Shown one piece after another: positions 27,601 through 61,503 of a stretch of DNA of 64,000 nt. The notes under the pieces are model-generated. The model was not told the origin of the DNA, made no database searches, and saw nothing but the letters and a program-made list of their open reading frames with translations. Numbering within the stretch: position 1 is the first letter of the stretch; each line of letters begins with the position of its first letter. This DNA is from Limnanthes douglasii subsp. nivea. Lineage: Eukaryota > Streptophyta > Magnoliopsida > Brassicales > Limnanthaceae. The stretch lies in contig JAUPFV010000003.1 in NCBI GenBank assembly GCA_036936605.1, positions 148,150,997-148,214,996 of the forward strand, given 5' to 3'. The position numbers and the translations under genes were made by a program.

Positions 27601-28154
27601 TATATATTTTATTATTATTTATTTAATATATATTTACATTAAAATTAGGTCAAAGGTCAAAGTATTATTTAATGCCTAATAATCAAAGTATTATCCACTT
27701 AAGATCCATATTTTTATATACCTATTAATATTTTTTTATCCTATTCACTTATATAAAAACCTTAATACTCATATTTGAGTCTTTTTCTTCCTAATTTTTT
27801 TCTACCTAACTTTAACAGTTTACTAGTATCATAGGTAATTCTCCATTCTTAATCGATTGTATTTTTATTGTTGTTTGTTGATTTTGATTGTGTTTAAGTT
27901 GATTTCGCAGTTAGTTTTATTGTTATAGGTGTAGAATTCGAGTTTTAGTAAAATTTGTTACTCGAATTTAGATTTCTCTGCATTAGGTTAGTCGATCTGT
28001 TTTTTCTTCTTTCTGTTTTTAGTATTCATCTGTTATTTTACGTTGATAATGTAGTATATTTGTGATATTAGCATTAGTTTTTCGTTGATTTTGAGTATGT
28101 GTGCTAGTTTATATAAGTTTTTAGTTTGCGGGTAATTGTTCTGTGTTTCTACGA

Positions 28155-28340
28155 AGGTGATGCGAAACGTTTTGTTATGAATTTAGTGGTAGATGCAAAA
28201 CGTTAATGTTTTTATTTATGAAGATGTGAAACGGTAGTGTTCTTGTTTGAGAATATGCGAAACATGTTTTACAGATAGATGCAGAACTCATGTATTGTTT
28301 ACTAATGATAGATGCGAAACCCTTGTCTAATGCAGGTACG
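28155..28340 (+). repeat. AGATGCGAAAC motif cluster 1 (about 6 copies)
   Basis: Copies include GATGCGAAACG, AGATGCAAAACG, AGATGTGAAACG, ATATGCGAAAC, AGATGCAGAAC and AGATGCGAAACC. They lie just before the transposase coding region, in a probable leader or intron ending TGCAG at 28336. Confidence 0.85.
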
Positions 28341-28342
28341 CG

Positions 28343-30756
28343 ATGTCTAGTAGTAGAGCGTGCATTTTTAAACTAAATGGGGAGCTGCAATTTATGATCT
28401 TGGTTTGTTTTCTGAGTTTGATATATTGTTAAATTTGTTTTAAGTAGATATGATACGTTGGTTTGGGGTAAATTCAAATTAAGATACTCTTGTGGTAATC
28501 TAGAAAATGTTATCTTAGGTTGTGATGGTGATTTAATTGCTTTGGTATCATTTGTTGATAGTTTGGGTGTTTCAAGTGTTACTATTAAAGTTGAAGGTGA
28601 TGTTGTTGGTGGTGATAATATGAGAGAAACTGCTGAAAGTATAGTTGAAGTTTCAAATGAAGATTTTATTTATGGAAAAACTGGTGAAACTTCTGGTGTT
28701 AATGTTATTAGTCGCAAACACCAAGCACTTGCTACTGTTGGTTGAGTTAATGAAATTAGTGGCATTGGGCAGGTGTTTCAAGATTAAGCAGTAGGTTTAA
28801 GATTAGTTGTTAGTCGATTGGCTTTACAAAGAGGTTTTCTTTTAAATATTTGCATAACAATAAACAAAGAGTAACTATTTATTGCATGAAAAAAGATTCA
28901 AAGGGCTGTCATTGGAGACTTTATGCTAAACAAGAGACGTCTACTGATTTTATTATTATTAAGAAGTATGTCTAAACTCATACATGTGGGACTGGTTTTA
29001 ACAAAGAAAATAAAAGGCATTTCTCATCTGATTTGATTGGAAATGAAATACGTGATTGTGTGAGGAGGAGAGTTGATGTTACAGCTACAAGTGTGAAATC
29101 ATTTTTTAAAAATGATTACGGTTTAGATATTTCTTATCGTGTTTCATGGCTTGCTCTAGAAAAAGCTAGGAGGGTTGTACATGGAGATAGTTCAACTTCT
29201 TATAAACTTCTTAAGAATTATTTTAAAACATTGAAGGTTCTTGATAGCAGTAGTGATTACATACTGGAGTATTCTTTGGAAACCAATGTGTTCAAGCGAT
29301 GTTTCGTAGCATTTGGGTCTTGCCTCTATGGTTTCAATTTGTGTCGTCAAGTTTTATTTGTTGATGGGACTTTTTTAACGGGAAAATATAATGGATTTTT
29401 GCTATCTGCTATAGCCAATGAAGGTAACAATGGTAAGTTTTATTATATTGGAACATATGTTATCTTTTAACTATGTTATATATGAATCTGTGAAAAACAG
29501 GATTGGAGATGAATAACAAATAGATAGATGCGAAACGTTCTGAATAAATAACGTGATAGATGCGACACGTGTAATTTATGATTAACGTGATAAATGCGAA
29601 ACACATATAGTATATGATTAACGAGATAGATGCGAAACATATCTATATCAGTAAGTGATAGTTGCGAAACCTCTTATAATGAGTCATTTATACTATGTTT
29701 TGTACTATATAGTGGTTACAGGTATTTTCCCTGTTGCATTTAGTATTGTTTCGTTTGAAGATACTGAGAATCGGGTATGGTTTTTGGAGATGTTGAAACC
29801 TCATTTTTTGGATCTCAAAATTCATATTAATTAGTGATCGTTATTTATGTATTGTTACTGTTGTTTCCGCTATATTTCCAAATTGCCATCGTGGATACTA
29901 TTTTTATCATCTTATGAATAATTTGAGGCATTATTTAAGGGCTACACCGATGACATTTAAGGATACTATGGTAAGACTGTTTAAAAGATTTGCATATGCT
30001 TATAATCAGAATTCGTTTAATCAATATATGGATGAATTACTTAAGCAGGGAGGTGAGAAGGTTGAAAGTATTTTTAAAAATTTATCTCCTAAGAAATATG
30101 TTTGTGTTTTTTTCAAAGGCAAGAGGTATGGTTCTATGGCATCTACTCCAGCTGAATCTCTTAACAATCAAGTTAAATAATTTTGTGGTTTGCATATACT
30201 CGAGTTAATTGATAGGATTATAGTTTTATAAATGAGTTAAATTTCGAGACGTTTTGGTGATGCTGAACGTTGGACTAGTGATTTGTGTCCTAAATTTGAT
30301 CAAAAGTTTAAAGCTAATGTGGAAGGTCGTCCATGGATAGTTCATTCATCTACTCCTATTTTTGATGAAGTGTTCTGTGATCCTATTATGGTTGTTAATC
30401 TTAGTGTACATCGTTGTTCTTGTGGTTTGTGACAACAAGAGTGTTTTCCTTGTTCTCATGTTGTAGCTGCGATATTTTATATAGATGCAGATCCCATGAA
30501 ATATGTTGAGCCATGCTATTTTGTAAGCTCTTATAAGGAAACATATTCATATGGTGTAGCTATATTTACTACTTTTGGTCAAGGATCTACTTCAAAAACT
30601 TCTCCAGATCTACTTCCTCCAGTTTTAAAAAGAAGAGCTGGACGACCTAAGAAAAAAAGAATTCCATCTAAAGGAGAATTAAGTATTCGTAAGATAACGT
30701 GTTCTTGTTGTCGTAAATCTGGTCATAACAGACGAACATGTGTAGACATTTTGTAA
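28343..30756 (+). pseudogene. MULE transposase (MURA-like), decayed
   Basis: After a divergent N-terminus (28343-28742) come a Mutator DNA-binding domain (RVTIYCMKKDSKGCHWRLYA near 28860-28920), the DDE core (VDGTFLTGKYNGFLLSAIA near 29358; ISDRY near 29835; ESLNNQVK near 30155), a SWIM finger (CSCG...CFPCSH near 30417-30460), an AT-hook-like RRAGRPKKKR and a CCHC knuckle (CSCCRKSGHNRRTC). An intron (29433-29721, GTAAGT...ACAG) splits the core. Lesions: TAA at 28973-28975 before THTCG, a 1-nt frameshift just before ISDRY, TAA at 30178-30180 and TGA inside the SWIM finger at 30430-30432. It would have cut and moved the element; it is dead. Confidence 0.88.
29433..29721 (+). repeat. Transposase intron carrying motif cluster 2 (5 copies)
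   Basis: The splice sites join NNG to IFPVAFSI. Five AGATGCGAAAC-type copies lie at about 29520-29670, spaced 25-40 bp. The adjoining exons have none. Confidence 0.82.
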
Positions 30757-30837
30757 GATGAATGTAATTTTTGATACTTTTAGTTTTTCTAAGCTGTTTT
30801 TTCATAATGATAATAGATTGGGAACATTTCAATGGAT

Positions 30838-31130
30838 GCTAGATGCGAAACCTTTTGTTATATATCGACCTGATAAATGCGAAACGTGTAATAACCAATA
30901 TATGGGCTTTGCTAGATGTGAAACACGTTTTACAAGATTTACTAAACTGGATGCCAAACGTTTGATGACAAGTTTTTTTTTATTTATGATAGATGCGAAA
31001 CATTTGAAAATAAGTTATATTATTTATGATAGATGCGAAACAGCTTACACTAAATACACTAATCTGATAGATGCAAAACTTAGATAATCAAATACTAAAT
31101 ATTTTTTATGGATGCAAAACGTTGGATTTA
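30838..31130 (+). repeat. AGATGCGAAAC motif cluster 3 (about 8 copies)
   Basis: The cluster follows the transposase stop, with copies such as TAGATGCGAAACC, AAATGCGAAACG, AGATGTGAAACA, GGATGCCAAACG and AGATGCAAAAC. Spacing is irregular at 25-50 bp, all on the plus strand. Confidence 0.85.
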
Positions 31131-31440
31131 AGTACATTCTTTTGGCAGTTGCTAAACTAGCTCATAAAATACGTTTTTGATGTAAGTGTTAAAATATGAA
31201 TACAAAAATATATAATAAAAAGATTTAGTTCATTATGAAACAAGTACAATACATGCTAAGTTCAGTCAAACGAAATATAAACTTAAACCAATGTAAAAAC
31301 AGAGTCTCCATATTCAAACTCTATTTAAGCAGACCCTTAGTCTTCTTGTTTGATTTGGGTCATCAAAAACAAAAAAGATAAAATTCTTCCTACTCTTAGT
31401 TAAAAAGAAAAGAAAAGAAAGCAGACCCTTCACCTAACCA

Positions 31441-31848
31441 TCAGTTAGAATCTTGTTCGTCGTCTTCAGAGGCATCTTCCTCCGAATCTTCTTCGTCTTT
31501 AGTGTCTTCATCCTCTTCCATCTGGTCCCGTTTCCTCTTTCTTTTTAAGAGGACAGAAATAGGATCCTCATCTGGCTTTTCTTCATCTTCAGAATAAGCA
31601 TCTTCGGTATAAGCATCTTCAAAAAAAGAACCGAAACTTTCATAAAATATCGCCAGAAAATTCGTCTGTCGTTGTATGTTTCCACTCTTCCCTGGCTTGG
31701 GGGAACGGGTTGGAGAACTGATATCACTATAATAGGGACCATCATCTGAAGAATAGTTAAAATTTGGTATTTTTTCAAAGCAACTTTTAAGAAGTGAAAA
31801 GTTTAGAAGATTTTCACTGAGAATGAAGTGAACTTTTGTGTTTGAGAC
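31441..31848 (-). CDS. 3' exon with acidic tail, unknown gene of the MULE
   Basis: On the minus strand an acceptor (CTTTCAG|GTCTCA) opens a 135-codon frame ending TGA at 31443-31441. It reads VSNTKVHFILSENLLNF, then a Ser/Pro-rich middle (SSPTRSPKPGKSG), then KRKRKRDQ and a long Glu/Asp tail. There is no good internal ATG and no recognised domain. The basic patch followed by acidic residues suggests a nuclear protein. Its upstream exons have not been found; they may have been on the side removed when element C and the palindrome formed. It may belong to a ULP-like or accessory gene of the MULE. Confidence 0.45.
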   Translation of the reverse strand, partial: VSNTKVHFILSENLLNFSLLKSCFEKIPNFNYSSDDGPYYSDISSPTRSPKPGKSGNIQRQTNFLAIFYESFGSFFEDAYTEDAYSEDEEKPDEDPISVLLKRKRKRDQMEEDEDTKDEEDSEEDASEDDEQDSN

Positions 31849-31865
31849 CTGAAAGAATAAAGTGA

Positions 31866-32182
31866 TATTTTATAGAGATAGCTAAAATGTTATAAGAAGG
31901 TGATAAGTTTAAAGATTAAACAAAGATAATATATTGGTTGACATTGTTTAGATTTTTAATTAATACAATGTAATAATGGGTATCTATTAGTTGTCAAGTC
32001 ATGTAAGTAAATAGCAAATCAAAGTAAACGATGAAGTTTACTTACATGACTTGACAACTAATAGATACCCATTATTACATTGTATTAATTAAAAATCTAA
32101 ACAATGTCAACCAATATATTATCTTTGTTTAATCTTTAAACTTATCACCTTCTTATAACATTTTAGCTATCTCTATAAAATA
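31866..32182. repeat. Perfect inverted repeat, 146-bp arms, 25-nt spacer
   Basis: The arms are 31866-32011 and 32037-32182 and match base for base; the spacer is 32012-32036. The arm sequence is related to 41930-42070 and 42410-42560, so it comes from the MULE repeat unit. Absence of any mismatch means the palindrome is very young or is an assembly or template-switching artefact. Confidence 0.95.
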
Positions 32183-32289
32183 ATGGGTATCTATTAATTA
32201 ATTAATGGGTAGCCATTACAGTTGTCAAGTCATATAAACTTAATAATGGGTATCTATTAGTTGTCAAGTCATTATTCACAGCCGGAAAC
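32183..32289. repeat. Short direct repeats next to the broken end of element C
   Basis: TAATGGGTATCTATTA occurs at about 32181 and 32245, and GTTGTCAAGTCAT at 32221 and 32260. These are pieces of the palindrome arm repeated once more. Element C sequence begins abruptly at about 32285, with no LTR. Confidence 0.7.
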
Positions 32290-35130
32290 GCTCTAGTTAA
32301 AGGTGGCTAGTTAAATTTTTCAAAGTTAGAGAGAGCGAGGAAGGTAGAAAGAGAGAACCGTATCGCCGCCGGCCTCCCAGTTTCTCCAAGTGAGAAAACC
32401 AGTCAACCAACTCAGGACGCCGATCAAGGGTCATCCTCTTCCAAAGGAAAAAGAGTCCCAACCTTCCCTTCTAGTTCTTCTGTTCAAGAGTCCCAACCTT
32501 TTGTGCCTAAGGAAAAAGCCGTTTCAAGTATCAGAAAACCCTCCTCCTTTATTGTTATGGGTTCTGATACTGAGAAGTCTCTGAAGAAGATAACCCATCT
32601 CCGAACAACCTGCCAAACCAAAACCCAATCCACACCTTCACTGCCGAAACCCTCAGGATCGTAGGTATCTAAATCAACTCCACGGGCCAAGCCCTCCGGA
32701 TCCCAACCTCAATCAGACACTAGGCCTTCAGAGGCAACAAGCGCTCAACCACCCGAACAACCTTCTGTGCAAGAAACTGACCCCCATTCTTCTAAGGAAA
32801 CTGATAAACCTTCCACAGTGGTGGAGGAGATTATGGAAGACAACATTAAAGAGGCCCATTTCAAGACTGAGACATCAGGTCAAACTGGAGATGCTGCTTC
32901 GGATAAGAAGGGAATGAGTAAGGTAAAAATCTATACGACTCCTCTGGATTCGCTTCCGGAGTGATTATAGGGAAATGTAGGCCCTTGTTTCAAGCACGTT
33001 AGCGTCAAATATCTGCTGGCCTTGCAAAACATCAATTATATCTACACCCATACTGCTGAACTGGGCCGAATCCGGACGAAATAAGGGATTCTGGAGTCTG
33101 TAAAGGTAAGGATACCTATTGCTCTGGAGACTCCCATGAATTGCAAGCTAAATGAGGTGGTAATTTTTACCGAAGTACTAAACTGGGGACTTTGATTCCC
33201 ACCGGACCCATAAATTATTAGGTACTTTCAGTTGGTCAAACTTTGCCCTAGCCAGTTAAGCCCCAATGCCAGGTACTCTCTCATTTCCTGTATCATGTCA
33301 TCAAGGTTGTCGAAGATCCCCCTTCTGATAGAGCAGTTTGCTGCTGTAGCAAGCTTGTGCAAGAATCATCAGATTCTATTCTACCATCACAACATGGGGA
33401 ATGACTTTAAAGTTGTGGACGATTTGTTGGAGTCTGAAAAGAATTGGAGGACACAATTCTTGTTTGTTAGTGAAACATGGGAAAATGGTAGGAAGATTAA
33501 GGCCAACACCAACCATAGCATGCTGACTAATAGGTGGAAAAACACTGGTAATTTCCTTTCTTTTCTTTGTCGTCCAAGTTTTTTTTCTTAAATTATAAGT
33601 GTTTTTTTATTCTGACTAGCTTGTTACTCCTTTTCAGTGCTACCAAAGAAGTTCACCATACATTTGGAGGAGGGGCAAAAGACCTGTGCAAAACTCAATG
33701 CACGGGCTTCAGAACACTGATGGAATGTCTTCCATAATTGCTTCACATCGGGAAATCTCGTGAGGTCTCATCTATGGAACACCACAGGCCGGAGAGACCT
33801 CTCATGGGAACAATTAACCACCCTTCATCCTCCTGGTGTGATTCTCAAAAGGACAGAGGCCAAGGATGGCAAGTTGTTCATACCTTCTATAGCTAAGACT
33901 CCCACCAATATGAAGAATAAAAAGAAGAAATCTGAAGCAAAGTTGGTTCAAGCAGATACAGAAGGGACTGGTTCATGGAACTAGGAGGATTGATGCAGTC
34001 TTGCTCAAAGCAGTGAAGGTTGAAACAGTAAGGGAGGTCGGAGGGTCGTAGAACCCCCCAAAGCCCCCTAAGAAGGACAAGAAACGGAGGGTCAGCAGTG
34101 ATGAGAAAGCTGTTAAGAAGAAGAAGGTCACCCTGGGAGAAAAAATAATTCTCCGTCCTTCAAAAATCCAACCTCCACCAGCCCCTGCTGATCCTACCTT
34201 GCAAGAGAAAATTCCAACAGATCTCCAGTCCGGAGAGATTTTTGGGGGAGGGAATGATGAAGTGGACATCATTTCCCTTCAAGACATTGATTTGTATTTT
34301 AATGATTATGAGAAGGATGATTTTGCAGGTCCCTACCATCCCTCTAATTCTTCCAATATCGTGACCTTCAATGGTAAATCCTTCTTCGTTTCCGGAGAGC
34401 AAGATGTCCTTACCCACTCCCTCCTCGGTCATATCCGGCCAATACTTGATTTGGAAAAGCAGGTAAAAATTCATACCAACCTTATCAACTCTCTCATTTC
34501 TGACAAACAATCTCTGTCAAACAGTCTCCTAAACGCTTAAGTAAGTATAAAGGAACTGAAAAAGGAGATGAAGGCATTGAAGAAGGACAAAAAAGATTCG
34601 GAAACTAAGTTATCCATATTGGAAGCAGCCAGAACTGAGCTCCAAACTAAGTATTCTGACTTAGAAAAATACCTTACAACGTTAAAGGAGGAAGTGAAGA
34701 CCAAGGATGGTGTCATTCAAACCTTAACTGATGAGAATACTAAACTATAGAGCACTGCTTCAGAGATGACCAAGAAAAAAAAGGATTTAAAGAGTCATCA
34801 AGAGCAAGCTATCCAAGCGGGTATTGATAAGTATACCAATGAAGTAGTATACTCTTTAGAAAAGAAAGATGATGGGATCAAGTCTGATATGGTGCTGCTG
34901 TTCCATGAGACCTTTCCGAAGAGGACCATGGGTCCCCTATAGAAGTATGTGGATTATGAAGAAATCTAATTTCATACTATAGCAGATGGTGACAAGCGTA
35001 ACTACTCCAACGGAATCGATTCCACTACTGATTATGAAGAGGGAACTGGTGAGAGTTTGAGTGCCAAACTCAAATTCGTAAAAAAGGTGATGGTGGTGAA
35101 GGCACGTCCGAAGGGAACAACCCCTAAGGT
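32290..35130 (+). pseudogene. Element C antisense gene (aORF), decayed
   Basis: It aligns with the aORF of D from LIKGGW onward: Ser/Pro-rich N-terminus, the Transposase_28-like domain (SRLSKIPLLIEQFAAVASLC near 33300), the SQFLFVS-like motif (TQFLFVSETWENGRKIKA near 33455), the exon 1 end near 33545, an intron of about 90 bp with GTAATTTCC and TTTTCAG, then RSHLWNTTGRRDLSWEQL (33760), DDFAGPYHPSNSSN (34318) and the coiled coil (34460-34860). Many stops and frameshifts are present, including a stop near 32662 and at 34538. The conserved exon layout in such an old copy shows that the gene was present in the ancestor of the family. Confidence 0.8.
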
Positions 35131-35640
35131 CTTATATTGTTTTTTTATATCCAAACAGTCAAAGTCCTTGGATGGCCAAGGAACATTTTGTATTACTATT
35201 TTGTTGAAGTCCGAATAAGTCCTTTGAACACCTAAAGTCCTTGGATGGCCAAGGTATGTTTTGTTTTTCTGTTCGGTTCAAGTCCGAACAGGTTTAATTT
35301 ATCAAACTTTCTTTTGTTTAATATTCTTCTTTAAATTGTTCATGGCTAATGTTTAAGTAGCCCCTAACATTTCAGAAGTATTAAAGTTAGAGTGTTTTAT
35401 ATCCCCGATGACATATATTTAATAGTCATCACTTAACCAAGTTTATTTGATCCACTAAAGACCCAATGTGTTGAACAAATGGTTTATACTTGAATTGAAT
35501 TATAGTAAAACCACTCCGAATGTTTAAGAAGGCATCATATAATATAAAAGACCGGACACCTTATTAAAATCTCCCCACGCCACCAAGGTAGGAAAGAGTA
35601 TGCCCCATAATATTTACATTGATATCTAACAAGTAAATAT
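35131..35640. repeat. Element C convergent 3' region with paired palindromes
   Basis: CCTTGGATGGCCAAGG occurs at 35166-35181 and 35240-35255, 74 bp apart. The conserved ATTAAAATCTCCCC and AAATATTTAC segments are near 35560-35645. No gene is seen. Confidence 0.75.
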
Positions 35641-38600
35641 TTACAAAATTTTTTTGTTCTAAATATAACCTGAGATGTTCAATATTCCATGGGTGCTTCA
35701 AAACTCTCACTTCTTTGTCCTGAATTTTATATGTCCTAGGTTTGAGATTTTGACAGATCTCATAAGGGCCTTCCCAGTTCGGAGCCAATTTATCGAACTG
35801 CTTCTCCTTGGTGTGTAAGAAACCTTGTCTTAACACCTTATCTCCTGGTTGAAAATCTATTCTTTTGACCTTGGAAGCAAATCTGCTCCTCATCAAACCT
35901 TGGTAGTGAGTTGTTCTTAAGTGAGCTTTAACCCTTCTTTCTTATATTAAGTCCAACTGATTCCTAATTTCTATCTCATTAGCTTGTTCAGAATAGTTGT
36001 GAACTCTGTATGATGGTAGGGTAGCTTCTATGGGGGTAATTACATCCATCCCATACACCAAGACAAAAGGATATTCTTGTGTAGCAGCCCAATGAGTAGT
36101 TCGGTATGCCCACAACACTTCTTATAAATAGCTTGGGCACTTCCCCGCAACTCATTCTAGATTCTTTTTTAATCTAGACAAAATAGTCATGTTGGCAACT
36201 TCAACTTGAGCGTTTTCTTGTGGATGGAAATGAGAAGAAAAACAATGTTGAATACCTCTAGAAGCACAAAAAATCTCCATATCTTTGTTATCAAACTGTG
36301 GCCCATTGTCTGTAGTAATCTTTTGGGGGATCCCAAATCTGCAGCATATATTGGATAGGATAAATTTAATGTCATCCTTCAAAGTGGTTCATGTTAAAGG
36401 AGTTGCCTCTATCCATTTTGAAAAGTAATAAATAGCAACTATAATAGTTCTGCACCCCCCGGATGCCATAGGCAGAGGTCCAACTAAGTCCATTCCCCAT
36501 TGGGCAAAAGGTACTTGCTCAGAAATAGACTCCATAGGTACTGCTGGCACATGAATTTCATTGTCATACCTTTGACGTGGATCACACTTCTTTACCATTT
36601 CTTTAGCATCTGCCATTATGGATGGCCAATAGTACCTAACTAACAACACTCTCCGGGTTAGTGCCCTGCACCCACAATGCGATGAGCCTTCTCCATCGTG
36701 TAGTTCAGATAAAACGACTTGAGATTCTTCAACCACCAAACAACAAAGGAGAGGTCTACTTAAAGATTTTTTTATGGAAAACTCCTCTTATGATAAAAAA
36801 AACCACGAGCCTTGTGTTTAATCTTTCTTGCCATAGATTTATCTGAAGGCGAAACCCCATTAGAAATATATTGAAGGAGGGAAAACCTCCAGTCTTTAAT
36901 TTGAATCACCTGTATGCTCATGCTTTACCTATTTTCCTTGTTTTGACTTGGCTGTATGGACGAACACTCCTCTATATGAATCCAAGGGTAGGACTCAAAA
37001 TACGCTATAGTTGCCAAAGAATCTGCTAGTGTATTTCCGATATGGGAATATGCTCATAACAAACACTTTTGAAGTTGGCTGCCACTTTTTTCAGGATGAG
37101 TAAATACTTGATCGATTGCTCCTTCTTAGCCTCAGACTGACCTTAAGCGTGATGAATGAGCATTTGAGAGTCATTCATCAACCGAACTCTCTTAGCCCCA
37201 TATAGGAAGGCCAATTTAAGACCAACTATAGCTGCTTCATATTCAGACTCATTGTTGGAGGCCCTGAATCCAAAGCATATGGCTTGGTACATCTTATCAC
37301 CATATAAAGAGGTTTGGAAAATTCCAGCTCCACAACCCATTGTACTTGAACCACCATCAGTTCAGACCATCCTATCTTTCTTGGTTTTACTTCTGAAGTT
37401 TGTTTGGAGTTCCTGTCCGAATGGAATTCTACCAGGCAATCAGCCACTGCTTGAGTTTTCATAGTTATTCGGGGGGCAAAATCAATGTCGTAATCGCCCA
37501 ATTATACTGACCACTTGGTCATCTTGATTGATATGTATGCCTTCTGAAGAACATTATTTAATGGGAAAGATGTCGAGACAATGATATAATGAGATTGAAA
37601 ATACGGCCTCATCTTTCTTGCCGCAGTCACTAAGGCTAATGCAATCTTTTCAAGCTTTAAGTACCTCTTCTCAGCTCTATTATACTTTTGCTGATGTAGT
37701 ATACCGGACGAGGGTAATTGTCTACTTCTCTTACCAATACTGCACTTATAGCATATTCTGACACAACCAGGTATACATAGAGTGTTTCTCCTTGAACTGG
37801 TTTGAAAAGAGTCTTTGGTAAGTACAAGTGTTTCTTTATTTCAACAAAATCTTGATTGCACCGTGGAGACCACACAAAATCTTTAGCATTATTCAAAGTT
37901 TGGAAAAACGAAGTCAATTTATCTGAAGACCTTGAAATAAAACGGTTTAGGGCAGCCAACCTTGCAGTGAGCCTCTAGACTTCTTTAATATTCCGAGGAG
38001 GATCCATTTCCAATAGGGCATTAAGCTGATCCGGATCGAACCCTAAAGACACATTTTTCTGGATTTAATTTCAAATTCAAAACTGTCAAATTAGAAAAAA
38101 ATTCTTGAAGATCAATTATATGCAAATCCTACTCTAAGCTTTTAACCATCATGTCATCTATGTATACCTCCATATTTCTACCAATCTGACCATCGAATGT
38201 TTTGTTCACCAACCTCTGTTAAGTAGCCCCAACATTCTTTAACCCAAAAGGTATCACTTTGTAGAAATGTAGACCTATGTCTGTTATAAAGGTAGTTTGA
38301 TCTCCATCCTTCAGATCCACCTGTATCTGGTTGTACCTGGAGAAACCATCCATGAAAGACAACAACTTGTTTCCAGACATTGAGTCTACCAACTGATCCA
38401 TCTGGGGGATTAGATAAAGATCTTTTGGGCAAGCTCCGTTAAGGTCAGTGAAATCAATACACATACACTATTACCCATTATTTTTCTTGACTAACACCGG
38501 ATTGGCAGTCCATGAAGGATACTGGGACTCGTTTATGTGTCCCATCTTGGTAAGCCGATCAACCTCTTGTACTATCACATCAGTTTTTTTCTTAGAAAAA

Positions 38601-38893
38601 GCTCTCATTTTCTACACAACATGTGCAACATTACTCCGGATTGACAACTTGTGTGAGATAACGCTTGCGAGCACTCCAGTTACATCACTATTGCACCAAG
38701 ATAAAACCTGATGATTATTTAGTAAAAATGACAACAATTTTGTTTTCAACTCTAGCGCCATTTTGGAACCAATCCTGATATTTCTACCCTTTGCAATGGA
38801 GTGAGTTTCAATTTATTTAACTGGTATTATAACACTGGGAGCCTCTCTTGGGTCATCAATCTCACCCTCTCCCTCAGAAGGCTCTAGTAACTG
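35564..38893 (-). pseudogene. pol: Element C pol, heavily decayed
   Basis: Recognisable pieces in order: RT (GNKLLSFMDGFSRYNQI near 38380; YIDDMMVKS near 38160), gypsy RNase H (37959-37660), aRNase H (near 37500-37150, NNESEYEAAIVGLKLA), integrase (36739-36389 with LVGPLP and YFSKWIEA; ITTDNGPQFDN near 36310; WEGPY near 35785). Multiple stops and frameshifts break it, and a segment between YIDD and the LGY motif is shortened near 38040. Confidence 0.87.
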
Positions 38894-41219
38894 CTAATCT
38901 TCATTAATCCGAACTGCTCCGCCAAAGTTTTAGGAGCAAGAGCAGTTGCATAACACTCCCTCGCTATCTTCTGACTACTTCGGACAACACCTACTTGCCA
39001 TTGGATTGCATACTTCAAGAACTGATTGACTATTGAGGCCACAACATGCATTCTGGAAAGCCAAGACCTCCCAAAAATTACATTGTAGGATGTGGGAAAA
39101 TCTACCATAACAAATAGCACCATCACCATCTTTTTAAAGGTCCCCTTGCCCAACAACACTTCTTTCTCAAATTCCCCAATTACATCCGCATATCTCCCTT
39201 TGAAGCCCATAATGGTTTTGTCTGAGTGTTGAATGACGACCAGATTTCTCATCTGCTTATAGGAGCTTAAAAAGATGATGTTTTCCGAACTGCCCGTGTC
39301 TATCAAAATCCAGCGTATATCATTGCCCCCAATTGATGCTCATATCACCACCGCATCATCATGAGGCCCAACAATATTTCTCAAAGCATCCTCATCAAAA
39401 ACTATTAATAGAAAAGAGGTTTGGTATTTATGGGAAGACATTCCCTCTTCCAACTGAGTGGCCAAACTGTGTACATGTCTTTTCCTTGATGAATGAGTGG
39501 ATGATGTCATAGTATCTCCACCAAATATGGTGAGTGACTCAAAAAAACTGATCAATCCGGACACCGTCCTGGCTTGTTCTACTAGGACCCCCATTTTATT
39601 CCGAGTTGGATCAGGATCCAGGTACTCATAATAAACATCAAATCTTTCAAGAATCACCATTGCCCCTTCTTGAGCAGATTTTCCTGCATTGTTTGTCGGG
39701 CCCGTCCGAGGAGCATTGTCAGGCCTGTTTGCACATCTTCTTTTGACATAAGCTCCCAGTTTTCCTCTTTAAATAAGGTTATACACTTCTTATTTCAATT
39801 CTATGCAGTCTTGAGTATTAGGGCCTATATCATTATGATATTGGCAAAAATAAGTATTTCAGCTTTCTCTGGGAGACTACAGTACCGTCGGTTTTCAAAA
39901 ATGGACTTCATCCTTGGTCTTGTCATATATTGTGGCCACATTTTCCCTTAAATCTGCAAACCACTCTGGTTGAACCCAAGGACCTCTTTTACCTCTTGAC
40001 TGCTGGCTCTGAAACTGATTCTGGTTGGACTGAATTTGTTTAGTCCAGTTGGACCCTTGTCTGGTGTCTATAGTCTTATATCGTGTCTGGTTAGCAGCCA
40101 GAGGGGCTGTTGTGGTGGACCTCACTTGACGGTGCATCCTGGTTTTCTTGATTTCTTCCATATTAATCTGTTTTTTTCCCACTTGATTCAACAGGCCACC
40201 CCAGGTCATGGCTTTCTTCCTGGTTGCCGAATCAGCCAAGTTCCCAGGATTCAACCCTTGTCTTAGAGAAGCAATTGCCACCTGTTTGAAGCAATATGCT
40301 AATCCGTTCTTTGTATTCACGAATCAACTTATATAGTCCTTTAAAGACTTATTTGGTTCTTGGGCACAATGGATTATGGTATCTTCATTGTCGTCTTTCG
40401 GAAGGCAACCCAGAATGTATCAAAGTTTCTAGTACACCCCTGGGGTAAGCTGTTATACCGCTTAAGAGAACTTCCTGTAAAAGTTTGAGAGAAAGCTTTG
40501 CACAAAAGTTTGTCATCATCATCAAAATTAATCATGAAGTTCTTGAATTGCTCCAGATGGTTGTCCGGATCTTTACTTCCATCATATTTCTCCATTTTGG
40601 AGCTGTCAAACCTTTTAGGTATGTTTCCAGACAGTATTTTGGCAGACAAACGTGATTGTCTCTAGTTTTTATTACGACTAAAGACTATGTCTTCATTAGG
40701 TGTTACGAAAATACATGGTTCCGTCTGAAAAGCAAAAGAATCAATCAGCAACTGATTTGCATGCCTGTGGGATGACACTTTGCCCAAATGCCTTTGAAGC
40801 CTACCATGACTATCCCTCTTTCTTGATTATTTTTTTATCAGCTTCATCTTTTTTCTGGATCTCCCTTTATCAGTACTTGATGACAAAGATTCCTCAAGCT
40901 CAGCCTCATTCGAACAACTACTGGAGGACTCTGAATCTAAACTTTCAACAGGTTTGGATCGATGTGTCTTCTTAGAGCTGATGTGAGTATTTTTTGAACT
41001 CAAATGAGTCTTTATTGATGGATCATTCTCCCTATGGTTGTCAGTATGATGAATAGCTGACGCCCCTAATTTCTTTCTTATACAATTTTTTGCTTGTTTT
41101 ATGGCCCTTATCGCCTCTATTTCTGCTCTCAACTTGTCTCGCTCTTCAACAGTGTATTCCTTATTTTCCCCAACCGTTTCCACCACAGAAGGTGAAGTTC
41201 CTTGCTTGTTCGAATCCAT
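38894..41219 (-). pseudogene. gag: Element C gag-protease, decayed
   Basis: It starts at the ATG at 41219 (MDSNKQGTSPSV). Pieces include the charged N-terminus, the gag domain (near 40650-40300), the ISRF region, the zinc-knuckle area near 39830 and the protease. The catalytic site reads MIDTGSSEN near 39300. It ends GATUAGCAGUUA at 38896, keeping the UAG and giving the full CAR YYA context. Frameshifts and stops are frequent upstream. Confidence 0.85.
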
Positions 41220-41272
41220 CAGAACTGGTTCTTTTTAATGGTTTTGAATGTAAAATTCAGGCACCTTCGTGC

Positions 41273-41289
41273 TCCCATTGTGGTCGCCA
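41273..41289 (-). other. Primer-binding-like site of element C
   Basis: TGGCGACCACAATGGGA on the minus strand, three bases inside the LTR. One change from A and D. Confidence 0.65.
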
Positions 41290-41292
41290 ATT

Positions 41293-41643
41293 TGGTTTGG
41301 TTTATTTTGGGCTGGGGGTAGTTTGTTAAAGTTTTTTGGTAAGTTTGAAGTATTTTGTGTTTAGTGTGAGGAGTAGTGAGATAATTAAGCAGACTACTTG
41401 TATTAAATGTTAATTACCCTCATTAATGAGAGTGGTTGGGGTATTTATACTCTTAATTAATGATCCATGGGCTTACCGGGTCAAGTTTAATGACCCATTA
41501 GTCTTTTAAGTTGATTAGCAAATAGCTTAGTAAAAAGGTGTTTTACATTTGTCCTATTCAGATTTTTTAGTGGAGTGTTGTGGTCTGAATTACCCCTGTC
41601 AAGATTAAGCAGTGTGTTGTGTTTGAAGTATCCGAACTCATCA
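41293..41643 (-). repeat. Element C 5' LTR (351 bp), only LTR left
   Basis: The ends are TGGTTTGG and CTCATCA on the plus strand, as in A and D. A TATA box is at about 41440-41447. It lacks the 21-bp direct repeats of the other LTRs and is over 100 bp shorter. The sequence after it (41644 on) matches the MULE repeat unit. Confidence 0.85.
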
Positions 41644-42840
41644 GAGTATCTTAACTACAAAAACATATTACTTCTGTAAGTGATAAGTGGATGAAAAATA
41701 ACTATACCAGAAGATAAAGATTTTCTAAGAGAAAAAAACAATTTATTAGATGTGAAACATTCATTATAATATAAAATCTAGATGCGAAAAAGTGTGTAAA
41801 AATTAAATAGTAGATGCGAAACGTGTTATTTACATTTCTCTAGTAGATGTGAAATAACATGTGAAATATAAGGGACATATGATATGCTAGATGCGTGACA
41901 CTATATTTAAATTTTTGATAGGTAAAATTATAAGAGGGTGAAAAGACTACAAGATTTGAGAGAAATAATATATTTGGTTGATATTCGTGAGCTTTTGTAT
42001 TAATGCAATGTAATGATGAGTATCTTAGACTTGTCAAATCATGTAAGAAAATATCAAATCAAACTAAAGATACTAGTTTGATTTTTGAATTTTTGAAATA
42101 TATATGTGTGATATTGGTTGAGTTTATTAACTACAAAAACATATTTACTTCTGTAAGTGATAATTGGATGAAAAATAATTTGACTAGAAGATAGGAAAGA
42201 GTTTCTAAGAGAAAAAATAAATTGATAGATGCGAAACATTCATTATATATAAATGATAGATGCGAAACCTTATGTAAAAATTAAATAATAGATGCGAAAC
42301 GTGTTATTTACATTTCTATAATAGATGCGAAAGAACATGTGAAATAAAGGGACATATGATATGCTAAATGCGGGATGCTGTATTTAAATTTTTGATAAGT
42401 AAAATTATTAAGAAGGTGAAAAGACTACAAGCTTTGACAGAAATAATATCTTTGGTTGATATTCGTGAGCTTTTGTAATTAATGCAATGTAATGATGAGT
42501 ATGTTAGACTTGTCAAATCATGTAAGAAAATATCAAATCAAACTAAATCTACTAGTTTGATTTTTGACTTTTGAAATATATATATTGTGTGTGTGAGATT
42601 GGTTGAGTTTATTAAACACAAAAACATATTTACTTATGTAAGTGATAATTGGATGAAAAATAATTAGACCACAAGATAGGAAAGAGTTTCCAAGAGAAAA
42701 CATAAACAAATAGATGCGGATCATTCATTAGAATATAAAAGATAGATGCGAAACATATCGATAGATTCGAGATCCACTAATAAATGCAAAACCCTTGTAA
42801 TTACACTCAGATAGATGCGAAACCATAGTTGTTAGATAGT
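41644..42840. repeat. Tandem repeat of about 480-bp unit with embedded motif clusters
   Basis: Two and a half units start at 41644, 42120 and 42605 (periods 476 and 485). Each begins GAGTNTNTTAA, has TAAGTGATAANTGGATGAAAAATAA, then about five AGATGCGAAAC-type copies, then the segment matching the palindrome arm. Element C's LTR abuts the start of the first unit. Confidence 0.88.
41740..42835 (+). repeat. AGATGCGAAAC motif clusters 4-6 (about 15 copies)
   Basis: Five copies in each of three groups: about 41748-41900, 42228-42375 and 42710-42830. All are on the plus strand, although the nearest gene (ULP) is on the minus strand. Confidence 0.87.
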
Positions 42841-44084
42841 TTTGTCATTGAGATATATTTTATAGTATACAAACTCTACAATAAAAAAATATGACAAACA
42901 TCACAAAACGAAGTAAAACAAATATTACAAATCATTGTCCCAATATTTGTTAGTGTTCATGTCATTAAGAAACATGTAGAATATCTCTGCTCTTCTTAAT
43001 AGTTCAATATCAGAAGTTTTTTGAAATTTAATTTTACCATGCAAAATATAATCTTTGAAGTAATCGCAGACCATTACTCCACAATCAAGTGATTCAGGTC
43101 TTTGTTTAGGAATTTTTATTGGACAAATTATCTTTATTGGCTCTTTTGCTTGTAAAATGTTTTTGTTTTTAAGGTATGCAATCTGTAATTTAATAAACAT
43201 AAAAATAAATCAGATGATATATATATATATATATGTTCTATGAAATTATTATTAAAGATAGACACTTATTAATCTTTCTGCAGTTTTTCTTGTTGGATCT
43301 GGACGTTTTGGTATTGAGTTTAGATTTACTGCTTTTTCATGTTCAACATCTATTACAAATAATGTCCAATGGTTAACCTTCTCAGGTCTAGCTTCTGTTA
43401 GAAGCGGAACGAAGATTAAACCTTATGTGATGCCTCGTAGTTTATCGTCAACATATAATGTTACATCCATATTTCGGTTCAGCAGATGCTACATTGGAGG
43501 AGTAATATTTAAAATAATTTATGTTTATAAATTAATGCATGTTGTAAAAGTATTTTATTCTTGCCATTACGCTTCCAGATAAGTATGTTACTCGCATAAA
43601 TTCTCATAGAGTACTTGCAACTGGTATTTGAAAGTTGAGTTGTTTAAGGTTGATATATATAAATATCAATTACATGTGTTGTCAAAAGTTGAAACCAACA
43701 GGCAACAATTTGTTAACATATGTATTGAGAAGCAATGGAAACAAACTAAATTTAAATATAACTTTTACCGTAGAGTCGATTTCATCTTCATCTGTTATCT
43801 CCATCAGAGTACTAACAAAAATATTAGATACTGATACATCTGGACATGACCATACTGTTGGATCAGAATTGTTTTCTCTTTTTTCAATCAGTTCTAATAT
43901 GTAGTATTCCTCTATGTCAATTGTAGCTGTTACTTTGTTCTTAAATGGCCATTATTTTCTGATAATTTCCTTGTTATGTAGTTCTTTAGAGACTTGATGT
44001 TGAGTATAATCTAAAATTAGTTCAAATGAAGGACCGTCATCCAAATCTTTCTGAACCAATGGGAAATAATTGAAACTGTAAGAG

Positions 44085-44690
44085 GAGATAGATGTGAAAC
44101 GTTCAGAAATATAATAGATGAGAAATAAGGGAAACCAAGATAGATGTGAAACATTCAAAAATATAATAGATGGGAAATAAGGGAAACCAAGATAGAAGCG
44201 AAACATATATAATATTGATAGATGAGAAACTTTTTTATTCAGATAGATGCGAAACCTATGAAACTTTCATATGTCAGAAACCAGTGAAAACTAACCTAGA
44301 TGCGAAACCAATGGAAAAAGGTAGATGCGAAAACAATGGAAATAATTTAGATGCAGAACCTTTTTGTAATTATGGTAAATGAGAAAGCAGGAAAACTATG
44401 CTAGATGCGAAACATTAAAAATATGATAGGTGTGAAAGTTTTTCAATCACTTACTTTTTTATTTTGTATATCATTTTCAATTCTTATAATTTCTTTCTCA
44501 ATTGCGGGGTCTAAGTCACTGACTTATGACGTTTGGATTTCTCGGACTTCTGATGCCTTTTCCTTAACAAAACAGAAAACTGGACATTAGATCTGAAACA
44601 TGAGTAAATGTAATACATAAGGAAGATAGATGCGAAACATGTATCTTTAAATACAAAACCAGTATTCAGTTAAACACCAGATGCAGATGA
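44085..44690 (+). repeat. AGATGCGAAAC motif cluster 7 (about 15 copies)
   Basis: This is a dense cluster: 13 copies between 44088 and 44450, then copies near 44590 and 44628. Variants include AGATGTGAAAC, AGATGAGAAAC, AGAAGCGAAAC and AGATGCAGAAC. It lies in a non-coding gap of the ULP-like gene. Confidence 0.87.
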
Positions 44691-45899
44691 ACATATAAAT
44701 ATAAATAACATTAGAGTATTTAAGCCAAAAAAGAAGATAATACACAAAAGTATATATCTTTAAATATAAAAGTTTTTCAAAACATGTTTTGTTAATTCTG
44801 GGTTATCTGTATCACCTCTTTGTTCATAGCATCTTTATTGGTGACTTTAGATTCTTTAGGAACATCCTTTGTCACACCAGATGCTTCAGCAACACTCTTG
44901 TCCCCTTTAAATACTTCAGCTACACTGCTTGTCCCTTCAGATACTACAACAACTGATTCTTTAGCAATAGGAACAACAACATTAGTATTTTTATCCCGTT
45001 CTTCCATAACAATATTGGGATTTTGTTCTTCTATAACATTAACAAGAACTGAGGGATCATCTTTTTTTTCAAAACCAACTTCAATCGGAGTTTCAACTAA
45101 GGGATTGTCTTTCTTTTCAAACCCAACATCACTATTAATAGTGGCATCAACTTGCTTTTCCACCCCAACTTCAATAGGAGTAGAATTCTCATTTTCTTCA
45201 GCAACAATATGTTCAGAAGTAACAATATCAACATTAATAGGGGGATCACTATTAACAGTGGCATCAACTTGCTTTTCCACCCCAACATTCTCGTTTTCAA
45301 CAGCAAAAACATCCTCAGATGTAGTAGCAGCAACATGAAACTCAACATCGCCAATATAGTCATCTTCAACAGCAACAACAACATTATGATCCTGTTTTTC
45401 CAAATCATCTACACTTTTTTCTTGTTGTGGAGGCGGAACCTTATCTTTCACAATAATATTTGGTGTTTTGTCTTGGTTTGCATCATAAACAACAGGGTTT
45501 TCGACTACAATATTAGGTGTTTTTCTTATCTTATTTAGTAATCAGTGGCCTTGGTCATTCAATCTGTTTCTTCTTGAATAAGTTTTTGGTTGATGTTTAG
45601 TTGTTTCCACGTTTAGCTTCAACATAGGTAGTTTAAGTGTGTTTTTATCTTCTCATTTTCTTCGAGTTTCTTTTTTAGTTCATCAATTTATTGTTGAAAT
45701 CCTCAGCGTTCCATTTCATTTTTTTCTACTTTTTCAAATGTTGTTAAGTCAAGGCTCTGGCTAGAGACTGGGTCAGTTTGTGGTTTGGCTGCATCTAGGG
45801 TTGGTGTTGTTTTTAGGACTGGGTCTGGGTGTGGGGCTATGGTTGGGGCTGGGGCTGGGTATATTGTGTTAACTTTCTGCAAAATAATAAGCAATATCA

Positions 45900-46260
45900 A
45901 AGATAGATTTGAAACCTTTGACATTAGAAGATGAATGATAGATGCGGAACCTTAACATTCATAAAACTAGATGTAAAACCTTTAAGTCAAACCAAAATGA
46001 TAGATGCGGAATGTAGTAGAAATAATAGATGCATAACCTAAATAGAGGAGAAAATATGTGGAACGTAAAAGAAAAGATAGATGTGGAACATGTATATAAA
46101 TGATAGATGCGAAACGTAAAACAAAATGATATATGTAGATCCTAAACAGAATGATAGATGAGAAACGTTAATTATAAGTATATGCAAAACCTTCACTAAT
46201 CATGATGCTAGATGCGGTACATCTTAGGATACTATCGATGCTAGATGCAGAATGTATAGT
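45900..46260 (+). repeat. AGATGCGAAAC motif cluster 8 (about 13 copies)
   Basis: Many copies here read GCGGAAC in place of GCGAAAC. Spacing is 20-35 bp. The flanking coding pieces of the ULP-like gene lack the motif. Confidence 0.85.
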
Positions 46261-47439
46261 AAAAATGATAAAACAAGAGATTTTTACCTTTTCTCTTGCT
46301 AGTAATTTTTTCAACCTTCTGTTTTCTGTCTTGAGATGGTATAATATGTCCAAAATGTTGATTTTAGATCTTTTTTCTATTGTCTTTTCAGGTTTCTTGA
46401 GATTTCTAAGAATCTGTTATGCTGTATTCACCTTTCTTGAAATAGGGGCATGAGTTGTATGTACTATCTTCTGTTTGTTCAGAGGATGAGTTTCTACCGG
46501 TAAAGTTCTCTTTCATGTTCTTGTACTGGTTTTCTTCGTTGTGTTGCAGTCTTTTTAGTTCTTGGAACTTTTTACATGGTTGAACTATGTATTGGTCGAG
46601 TGTTGTTTCGCTATCAATAGAATTTGTTGCAGCTGGTTCTTGTAATGTATCCTAATGCAAATCATCTTCATCTTCGTTGAGGTTTACTTGTTTAGATGCT
46701 ATTGGTGGAACAATATCATTTTCTTGAGGAGCATCATTATTTTCTTCTTGTATTTGGAATTCTCCTCCAAATTCTTCATCTTCATCTTCTTCTTTTGTTA
46801 GCTTTAATTCTTCTTCAAGAATCTATAAAATTGTTAAAATTTTATAGTAAAGATATATATATATACATATATATATAGGTAAAATGTGAAAGATTAATGA
46901 AAAACATATCGTAAATATACCTGTTCATTTGTTATGTTTTTTATGGCTTCAACCAAATCTAAATCTGTTTTGCGTTCAATACCCAACCATTTGAAGAATC
47001 TAGGTATCTTATCTTCAATTTCAATATCTTGACATAAAGTTGTGTGTTCCATGATGAATGACTATATATTAACAATACTTTAGATATCATTTATTGACTA
47101 AATATTATATATGAAATAGAACAAAAAAAATACTAACCAGTAAAAGGGCAACACATCCAACTACTCTTCCAGGTTTAGTTTCATGACAAGCTATGATTGA
47201 ATTCATCAAATTTTCCCGGATTGCTTCAGCCCAATTGTAGTTGTTTATTTTATCAAGATGTTCAACATAATACACCACATTTGAAGCTAGTACATCTCCA
47301 GATGTAAAGAAAAACAAGGTAGAACATGCTAGCAATATAAAGAGTATGACAATATCTTTTATTGCCTCTTGTCCAGATATTTTTACTGTTTTCTTTATTG
47401 CATCCGACCAACAAGAAAAACCATTTTTTAAAAAATGGA

Positions 47440-47730
47440 TAGTTGTGAAACCCTAGTAATTACATTCAGATATATGCGGAACCAATTGAAATGTGAAAGG
47501 GAATTTAAAACGATAGATGCGGAACCTATGTGGATGGTAAAAAGCTAGATGTGAAACCTGTATTAATCTTGATAGATGCATAACATGGTTTAATTTGAAA
47601 CAAGCCTAAAGTGATAGATGTGAAACCTATTTTAATGTGAAGCAGATTAAAGAGATAGATGCGTAACGCTATGAAAATTTTAAAGTAAATCAGAATTAGT
47701 AGATGAGAAATAACCTATGCAAATATTAAA
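47440..47730 (+). repeat. AGATGCGAAAC motif cluster 9 (about 8 copies)
   Basis: Copies include AGTTGTGAAACC, TATGCGGAACC, AGATGCGGAACC, AGATGTGAAACC, AGATGCATAAC and AGATGCGTAACG. The cluster lies between the two DUF1985-like exons. Confidence 0.85.
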
Positions 47731-48214
47731 ACAGTCCAAAAATGTGAGAACGATGGAATTGCGAACCTTTATAAGTTTGTTAGTGATTGGTCTTGCTCGT
47801 CTTTCATTAATTTTTCTTCGTCTACTAATTCTGAAAACTTAGGTTCAAAACTTTTGGCTTGAAGTGACATATTTTCATTCTCATGTTTTAACCAAAGATG
47901 ATCTTTATGTCATGGTTTGTAAGCTGTAAAAACTTATCCCCCAATTTAAATGTTTCTTGTTCGTCATCATATGTCATTGTTATCTGTTCAATTGCATCCC
48001 TGTGCTTTTTGTATGTAGTATTCTTTGTTCGAAGATCATAAGATGTTTTTAAAAGTGAGTAAAAGGGTGTCTTATTTGCTGATTCTATATGTTCTGGCCT
48101 TACTTTTGTCTCTTCTATCTGTTTTAACAATATAAAGAGGCCGGACCTATAGAAACATGTTTTTGGTGTCATTTTACATGTAAAAACAATAATAGAGATA
48201 AATATATCAGTTGT

Positions 48215-48610
48215 GATAGATGCAAAAATTATGGAAGTTAGATAAGTGATAGATACGAAATCTATGTAAATGTCAATGCACTAAGACACTAATAAATGTA
48301 AAACCTAAGGAGATCTATAATCAAGAAATCTGCTGGATGCGAAACCTAAAGAGATCTATAATAGAAAAATTTGCTAGATGCGAAACGTATGTCAAATGTT
48401 AAGCAGTACAGACGATAGCTGTGAAACTCTATAAAAACCTGCAAATATGGGGGGGAAGATGATAGTTGCGAAACCTATATAAATATTAATGCACATAAAG
48501 ACTGATAGATGCGAAACCTAAGGAAATCTACAACCAGAAAACACAAGTAGATGCGAAACCTATATAAAAAACCCGCAATTACCCGAATACTATATGCGAA
48601 ATCTATACAA
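48215..48610 (+). repeat. AGATGCGAAAC motif cluster 10 (about 10 copies)
   Basis: The cluster is upstream of the first recognised ULP-like exon. GCTAGATGCGAAAC and GATAGATGCGAAACCTA are the best copies. Spacing is 30-60 bp. Confidence 0.85.
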
Positions 48611-48700
48611 ATGTCACAAAAGCATGTATGAATTTCAGTAACATTTAGTAGGGCTTTCTATAATGGAAATTATATTTTGATTAAGAAGTTTCTACAGCGT

Positions 48701-48728
48701 CTCGTGTCTCACTTTGACGAGACACGAG
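48701..48728. repeat. Short perfect hairpin
   Basis: CTCGTGTCTC and GAGACACGAG form 10-bp arms around an 8-nt loop. It lies upstream of the ULP-like gene. Function unknown. Confidence 0.8.
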
Positions 48729-48779
48729 TAAGCAGTGTTTATCACTGAAAAACAAACTGGAAACAATGTTTTTGAACCC

Positions 48780-49090
48780 TAGATTTCAGTAATCGTAATC
48801 GTAATCGTGATCGAACTGAATAATCGTAATCGTAACAGTATAAAACTTAGTGCTTCACCGTTGTTTGTCGTTGTTGATACTCTGATACTCTAGCCAGAGT
48901 CTTAATCGGAGTTGATACTCTGATTGGAGTCGAACGAACTGTGTTTTTGAATTCGTCGGAGTCGTAATCGGACTATGGTTTTTGAATTCGTCAGATTCAA
49001 TCGTAGTAGTTATCGTTGTTGATTCGCCGGAGTCGTTATCGTTGTTGATTCGCTGGAGTCAATCAGAGTAGGTAGTTGAATTCGATATCG
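48780..49090. repeat. Degenerate short repeats (AATCGT, GTTGTTGATTCGC)
   Basis: Repeated AATCGTAATCGT at 48787-48835, then GGAGTCGTAATCG and GTTATCGTTGTTGATTCGC type repeats to about 49070. This is probably the leader region of the ULP-like gene. Confidence 0.7.
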
Positions 49091-49429
49091 GTGTCGATAC
49101 CGGAGTGAGGATAGGGAGATAGAGGAAGTTAGAGAAAGAGGGGAAATTCGAAAGGGAGAGGGAGAAATTACAAGTGTTCAAAAACGGGTCTTTATATCAA
49201 TGATATTTTTGGAAAGAAATTTGTGAATTATTTTGGGCCTTTATAGGTAATAGGTTTGTAAAATGGATATTCATTGGTATGTCTTCCTTAAAATTATGTA
49301 TTAGAATAAATAATTATCATAAATTAACATAATATACTATTTTCATAAATTTAAATAATAAAATTTAAATAAATAATTAATATAAAATAATACATGATAT
49401 ATTATCTATTTAATAAGAAAACCTAATAA

Positions 49430-52320: not shown

Positions 52321-52327
52321 TATAAAT
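52321..52327 (+). promoter_or_regulatory. TATA box of the element D antisense gene
   Basis: TATAAAT lies 102 bp before the ATG at 52429 and is followed by a CT-rich leader (TCTCTCTC). It matches the site in B. Confidence 0.6.
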
Positions 52328-61450: not shown

Positions 61451-61503
61451 ACGGACAGAATTTTTTGGCAGGTTTTGAATGCTTGATTCAGGCACCTCTC
61501 TTC

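Follow-up and report, generated by a model that had tools for sequence, protein, structure and literature searches.

In a 64,000-nucleotide stretch of the Limnanthes douglasii subsp. nivea genome (contig JAUPFV010000003.1, positions 148,150,997 to 148,214,996; hereafter the window), we found a Mutator-like element (MULE) whose noncoding DNA carries dense, one-way arrays of a short motif, motif A (RATAGATGCGAAAC). Motif A is probably recognized by one of the element's own proteins, the best candidate being the product of its PMD-like/Ulp1 gene, which would counter silencing. The element carries a transposase gene on the plus strand and an acidic open reading frame (ORF) and the PMD-like/Ulp1 gene on the minus strand, with a decayed long terminal repeat (LTR) retrotransposon nested inside. 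Its limits, genes and motif arrays are as follows.

27639..27647, no strand: left copy of the 9-bp target-site duplication (TTAAAATTA), an identical 9-mer at both ends, adjoining ends common to other copies
27648..49287, no strand: MULE with nested LTR-retrotransposon fragment, 21.6 kb; ends placed by homology to short copies and by the target-site duplication
28158..28320, plus: motif array 5' of the transposase gene, 4 copies by position weight matrix (PWM), plus two at 28222 and 28253 that have one mismatch each
28343..30753, plus: transposase gene, disrupted by stops and frameshifts, with DBD_Tnp_Mut, the MULE domain, SWIM and a C-terminal CCHC-like knuckle (by eye)
29526..29670, plus: motif array in the transposase intron, 5 copies with a 32-36 bp period
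30815..31120, plus: motif array 3' of the transposase gene, 9 copies
31441..31869, minus: acidic ORF, third gene of the element, with counterparts in the relatives L012 (60% over 93 aa), L014 (56% over 99 aa) and L032 (57% over 30 aa), described below
41748..42823, plus: motif arrays 3' of the PMD/Ulp1 gene, with 14 copies in all, the majority within a tandem unit of 478 bp (41644-42755)
42928..48172, minus: PMD-like/Ulp1 gene (VANC/KIU-like candidate), disrupted, with many exons, a PMD-like N-terminus, an acidic repeat region and a C48 peptidase domain
44090..44438, plus: motif array in a PMD/Ulp1 gene intron, 13 copies with a 26/52-bp period; 1 further copy at 44628
45905..46253, plus: motif array in a PMD/Ulp1 gene intron, 12 copies, plus a weak one at 46895
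47441..47711, plus: array of 8 motif copies in the intron that separates the first PMD-like exons
48218..48602, plus: motif array 5' of the PMD/Ulp1 gene, where the PWM finds 9 copies with spacings mostly of 41-47 bp
49288..49296, no strand: right copy of the target-site duplication (TTAAAATTA), 9/9 identical to the left copy

Motif A Is Enriched, One-Way and Noncoding

The window contains 20 exact copies of the 11-mer AGATGCGAAAC, all of them on the plus strand. Allowing up to two mismatches on both strands, we counted 86 matches against 15.2 expected, the highest of 100 shuffles giving 27. A 24-column PWM, iterated to convergence and applied at a score above 9, found 77 plus-strand copies (spanning 28158-48602) and one minus-strand match in the 10.2 kb of the element that remain after removal of a 10.5-kb insert; dinucleotide shuffles (n = 200) gave a mean of 0.91 matches and a maximum of 4. 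The insert itself holds none on the plus strand and one on the minus strand, and the other 43.3 kb of the window none and four, respectively. When each cluster was left out of the matrix in turn, 75 plus-strand and no minus-strand copies were still recovered in the clusters. Unsupervised counting of 8-mers in the noncoding DNA of the element ranked TAGATGCG first (31 vs. 0.7 expected) and TGCGAAAC second (27 vs. 0.5 expected), neither with a single reverse complement. An earlier note on this DNA, made by eye, had proposed about 80 copies of one motif, all on the plus strand; the number is borne out, as is the strand bias apart from the one minus-strand match. The range that it gave, 28155..48610, falls within the element, the real limits of which are wider (27648-49287). 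Its description of the motif as scattered through a MULE fits the arrays, but not the interval from about 31.2 to 41.7 kb, which is without plus-strand PWM matches and holds the LTR-retrotransposon fragment.

Although exons, inferred by eye and by homology, occupy 54% of the element, 76 of the 77 copies lie outside them (p = 7e-25 under an assumption of independent copies, which these are not). The claim that exons are free of the motif thus stands save for one copy, at 30483. The earlier note placed copies in the transposase intron, the flanks and the gaps of the ULP-like gene; of the 15 noncoding gaps counted, 10 hold copies, two of them a single one, and five, each of 58-123 bp, hold none.

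The arrays consist of local tandem repeats of about 25-52 bp, with steps mostly of 25-27, 31-36 and 40-44 bp, plus the one 478-bp unit. The earlier description of the spacing as irregular and not satellite-like is therefore only partly right, the arrays being built of these local repeats. Between arrays, the motif alone is held in common: flanks are 32-36% identical against 31% expected, and the motif 75%, a figure inflated by the choice of matches by score. Tandem repeats with periods specific to each cluster are what would be seen if the arrays were passive minisatellites expanding without function in the noncoding DNA of the element, and the lower conservation of the motif than of the remaining sequence in two copies of the 478-bp unit points the same way. 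We nevertheless regard this explanation as improbable. Arrays that differ in period and have unrelated flanks repeat one and the same 11-15 bp, in a single orientation across 10 noncoding segments, and relatives with as little as 60% identity in the PMD exon retain them; passive repeats are not expected to hold one word across unrelated units.

Relatives of the Element in the Host Genome

We searched the host assembly (1.78 Gb, 633 contigs), in which the exact 11-mer has 20,017 copies against 219 for the reversed pattern. On one contig, 20 regions were examined: 18 around motif clusters, one (L013) continuing the first cluster and one control (L031), the latter two with no motif A copies. L014 has the transposase, acidic ORF, Ulp1, repeat, PMD and N-terminal exons, with motif A at 68 plus and 0 minus; L012, which is incomplete at the region edge, has 42 and 0. 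The 16 regions L015-L030 carry 3-24 copies each (major strand 177, minor strand 3), and family-A genes are absent from them: 14 had no match to the window proteins at E 1e-4, and L020 and L030 matched just a distant PMD N-terminus.

To avoid dependence on the motif, L032, L033 and L034 were picked by a match to the PMD exon at 60-68% identity, this query having at least 211 matches in the genome. All three proved to have dense arrays (41/0, 48/1 and 0/56 plus/minus at scores above 11). L034 has the gene on its plus strand and the motif copies on its minus strand, and motif A is antisense to the PMD/Ulp1 gene in all six gene-bearing copies (the window, L012, L014, L032, L033 and L034). It reads with the transposase in the four of these six in which the transposase is in view. 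Related MULEs in the host genome, which the earlier note had proposed as a check, thus bear the same arrays, whether found through the motif (L012, L014) or through the protein.

Some gene-less copies, at least, keep both element ends and arrays. Terminal sequence common to the window element was present in six of the 16 regions (L015, L016, L017, L018, L025 and L027). The gene-less L021, L015 and L023 have 15, 24 and 6 motif copies, element ends, and target-site duplications of 9/9, 8/9 and 8/9, respectively. L015 served to define the ends, whereas L021 and L023 did not; in all three the ends resemble the end sequences used at 19/24 positions or more; a looser rule (14/24) also matched L019, L020, L026, L028, the control L031 and 8 of 81 letter-shuffled controls. 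In the window copy the target-site duplication is 9/9, and terminal inverted repeats are absent or degenerate, its ends being alike at 11/24 positions. The ends of L015 are alike at 19/24 as a terminal repeat, and a repeat search in L015, L022 and L026 gave no clean one.

A splicing signal was rejected because copies read antisense to the minus-strand gene and arrays occur in intergenic and flanking DNA and are kept in gene-less copies, as the earlier note had argued from orientation.

Other PMD-Gene Clades Carry Other Motifs

Four motif types were found over 13 loci with a matched element gene, a small and partly motif-chosen set (the window, L012 and L014, and by accident L020 and L030). For the comparison only L020:1-4000 and L030:6001-10000 were used, which excludes their separate motif-A copies. 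Four loci (L035, L036, L037 and E2) were picked from Peptidase_C48 matches.

E2 (12.5 kb) has the full gene layout, with a transposase 44-53%, Ulp1 36-44%, PMD 43% and N-terminus 38% identical. Its motif B (TTAGGCTGCGAATTGT) has 67 TGCGAA cores, 45 on the plus and 22 on the minus strand and none in matched exons, and forms 16 everted dyads (TTCGCA-N8-TGCGAA); the hexamer TGCGAA is common to motifs A and B. Motif C (GAGAGTTGTTTGCAACT) belongs to the PMD clade of L030, L041, L042, L043 and L044, and its 17-mer has 3,812 copies genome-wide, against 0. L030 had been fetched for its motif-A copies and elsewhere holds a PMD N-terminus with motif C; all four loci picked by that N-terminus carry motif C. 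Motif D (ATCACATGTT) was seen at the single locus L020 (10/0). In L043, motif B lies upstream of the N-terminal exon and motif C mostly in introns, possibly a motif switch. None of the motifs rises above background (0-0.4 per kb for each) in L035, L036, L037, the random L031 or the remainder of the window. N-terminus identity over 12 loci is 39-78% within family A (just the pair L014-L033 at 39) and 26-39% to others; the B and C loci are 57-81% alike with no clean split, L043 being nearest to E2 (71%). Strict one-way orientation is confined to family A and the single D locus, and motif C lies on both strands in part since its word is nearly an inverted repeat; with B and C on both strands, one-way orientation is no general rule. 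The suggestion that each subfamily has its own motif agrees with these different motifs in other PMD-gene clades of the same genome. As a separate observation, a 173-bp tandem satellite (L030:8510-10000) adjoins the PMD-gene N-terminal exon of L030.

These comparisons bear on two further explanations. The transposase (or the product of the acidic ORF) might bind the arrays, spread inside the element, in the service of transposition rather than of anti-silencing, an idea to which we give a modest minority chance: motif orientation tracks the transposase strand in the four copies with both in view, and a transposase could mobilize gene-less copies of the kind that retain ends and arrays. Known MULE transposase sites, however, sit in terminal repeats, whereas these arrays fill introns of both genes. 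Motif type also goes with the N-terminus of the PMD gene, a weak exclusion, as the transposase of family B differs too (44-53% identical). Alternatively, the motif could be read by the host, as a splicing or transcription signal or as a site for a host DNA-binding protein that helps or limits expression. Many copies are intronic and a host factor could equally read a 15-bp word, but arrays also occur in intergenic and flanking DNA and in gene-less copies, and a single host factor would not explain why different families in one host use different motifs; we think this very improbable.

Genes of the Element and State of the Window Copy

When the transposase was read through, with X at stops, Pfam gave MULE (PF10551, 4.7e-11) and DBD_Tnp_Mut (PF03108, 7.3e-6) above cut-off and SWIM (0.0013) just under it. 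In the PMD/Ulp1 gene, Peptidase_C48 (PF02902) scored 5.8e-7 and 30 bits against a cut-off of 20.7, and PMD 9.4e-5 and 22 bits, below its cut-off of 34.9. Protein searches with the transposase and the PMD region covered 3022 and 3015 candidates, none at E 1e-3, and the sole NCBIfam match of the transposase was an IS256 transposase (E 0.074). Among solved structures, the longer Ulp1 query reached a best E of 0.35 and the PMD part 0.11, which is chance level; a structure model of the PMD exon had a mean predicted local distance difference test score of 57, too low for a structure search. The last Ulp1 exons had SENP2 as best match (E 0.028), and in that alignment His, Gln and Cys are retained while the position of the catalytic Asp is Asn (43.3-43.4 kb of the window). 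The corresponding HWT stretch was located in four of the six other loci scanned (L033, L035, L037 and L038), all four with Asn there by eye, which suggests a feature of the lineage rather than decay. A Cys-His-Asn triad is possible. The acidic ORF is, to judge by its matches, a conserved gene of the element, and nothing ties it to the motif. The PMD/Ulp1 gene seems the better candidate for a partner because motif type goes with its clade.

The window copy itself is most likely dead and at most a target for anti-silencing. Its transposase and PMD/Ulp1 genes are interrupted by stops and frameshifts (by eye). The motif has CG in 42 of 77 copies and TG, CA or TA in 26, variants that would fit decay of methylated CpG. 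In the 478-bp unit, moreover, the motif is less well kept than its surroundings, so that this copy gives no sign of present selection on it.

A near-perfect 317-bp palindrome lies at 31866-32182 (arms 94% identical; RNA fold -223 kcal/mol, z -37); the sequence duplicated in it, in inverted form, shows 78-79% identity to 41917-42068 within the 478-bp unit. Such a palindrome could be a source of hairpin RNA and small interfering RNA against the element family; Mu killer in maize is a comparable case.

A Probable VANC-Like Anti-Silencing System

The likeliest reading of motif A, as the target of an element-encoded anti-silencing protein, may be pictured as follows. In an active copy, many PMD/Ulp1 molecules would bind the dense one-way arrays in introns, intergenic DNA and flanks and, as VANC does, would strip DNA methylation and silent marks not only from their own copy but also from its sisters and from array-bearing derivatives without genes, with the result that only this family would escape silencing. 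Tandem duplication would enlarge the arrays locally, outside coding sequence, and the protein would evolve along with its motif until each subfamily had its own word. We observed the arrays, their strand bias and exclusion from exons, their conservation in relatives, their retention in gene-less copies and the clade-specific motifs; from these we infer the binding of protein to DNA, the demethylation and the identity of the partner. The earlier note had likewise favored a DNA-level role akin to VANDAL/VANC, and enrichment, strand bias, exon depletion, the same arrays in relatives and other motifs in other clades all agree with it.

Among the closest parallels is VANDAL21/Hiun of Arabidopsis, whose VANC21 binds YAGTATTAY in noncoding arrays of one orientation (Hosaka 2017, PMC5735166). 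As described there, this MULE has the same arrangement, with a dense, same-orientation short motif in introns, intergenic and terminal noncoding DNA, mainly noncoding and often in tandem repeats, and with motifs that differ between related families. It differs in its word and in its DUF1985/DUF287 protein, in place of the PMD-like and Ulp1 gene and the CpG-containing motif found here. VANDAL6 and VANDAL8 with VANC6 form a second motif system in one host, again in noncoding tandem repeats, with motifs AGTTGTCC and AGTTGTAC (PMC5735166). Motif A resembles neither these nor that of VANC21 in a comparison with shuffled letters (p 0.35-0.72); motif C has AGTTGT in common with the VANC6 motifs, by eye alone. 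In Limnanthes, dense noncoding tandem arrays in one orientation are found in family A, those of B and C lying on both strands. Kaonashi elements, MULEs without terminal inverted repeats, are alike, as far as their description in a review goes (PMC13317346), in having an Ulp1 domain in a gene beside the transposase, and each family's motifs are said to be the target of its own Ulp1-carrying VANC genes (KIU); the review dates Ulp1 capture to the monocot/eudicot split. VANC and RNA-directed DNA methylation are reported to compete over noncoding regions (Sasaki 2023, PMC10398659). For MULE-Solanaceae_1 and other plant MULE groups (42, 47-50), Table 1 of PMC6446971 gives a SWIM transposase, a PMD gene antisense to it in some or most members and, where stated, a 9-bp target-site duplication; that table describes no motif arrays. 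A literature search for the 11-mer AGATGCGAAAC returned nothing on topic, judged by title.

Several results weigh against this reading of motif A or give it no support. Neither DUF1985, the published VANC domain, nor DUF287 was listed by Pfam at E up to 10, and PMD fell below threshold. In the two longest copies of the 478-bp unit, 61 of 75 motif bases are identical against 371 of 397 elsewhere (p = 0.002), and this divergence persists without CpG (p = 0.003). As to helical phasing, 74 motifs gave p = 0.001 at 10.75 bp (jitter null, 17 periods tried), but p was at least 0.15 at that period with the stronger motifs, and the full set of motifs has a higher score at 13.0 bp, which is half of 26. 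L035, L036 and L037, which have Ulp1 but gave no match to the PMD N-terminus in the 5-6 kb examined, are without a comparable dispersed array (L035 has one 32-bp tandem repeat with a word of its own), so that Ulp1 alone is no predictor of arrays. Finally, L043 combines two motif types, B and C occupy both strands, and D comes from one decayed locus. On the domains and spacing of such genes, a study by Sasaki in EMBO J in 2022 is reported to describe how DUF1985, DUF287 and Ulp1 domains were lost and gained, and to assign a role to motif density and helical spacing.

The kind of system is already known; the present one is a new and unusually rich member with a PMD-like domain, in a genome that holds at least two further motifs, perhaps three. 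More tentatively, several PMD/Ulp1 MULE clades may each have built a separate, self-addressed anti-silencing code (A, B, C and perhaps D), with copies such as L043 recording an ongoing switch of motif, though we think this rather less likely than not to be so. Two features would then be new in kind: a CpG within the target word, through which methylation itself could gate binding, and the everted dyads of family B, TTCGCA-N8-TGCGAA, which imply a different, dimeric mode of recognition. Sequence-specific anti-silencing made by transposons was tested in Arabidopsis in the papers cited here. A single genome that holds about 20,000 exact copies of one target word, some 3,800 of a second and several protein clades would allow a code relating protein to motif to be read by comparison; it would also test how selfish elements evade silencing without harm to the host, and proteins that remove methylation at a chosen short word would be useful epigenome tools.

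Rejected Candidates and Surroundings of the Element

Motif doublets in three stretches of viral contigs (L001, L002 and L003) were taken as unrelated. The viral genes of L001 have a 15-bp coding period and are pentapeptide-repeat-like by eye, their in-frame GATGCGAAAC doublets mimicking the motif by chance; L002 has the same matches as L001, and L003 has a 33-bp tandem repeat.

The retrotransposon nested in the MULE is placed as follows.

32272..41640, minus: Ty3-like LTR retrotransposon, truncated, with approximate limits set by eye and no left LTR detected

It has no plus-strand motif A copies and is about 71% identical to copies at 6.9-17.4 kb and 51.5-62.0 kb. Directly left of the element, a probable host gene with several short exons lies on the minus strand at 24300-27250 (by eye). 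The large LTR retrotransposons of the window, at 6859-17420, 51541-61974 and 1-6674, are of one family, and long additional ORFs run antisense to pol in the two of them that have both LTRs.

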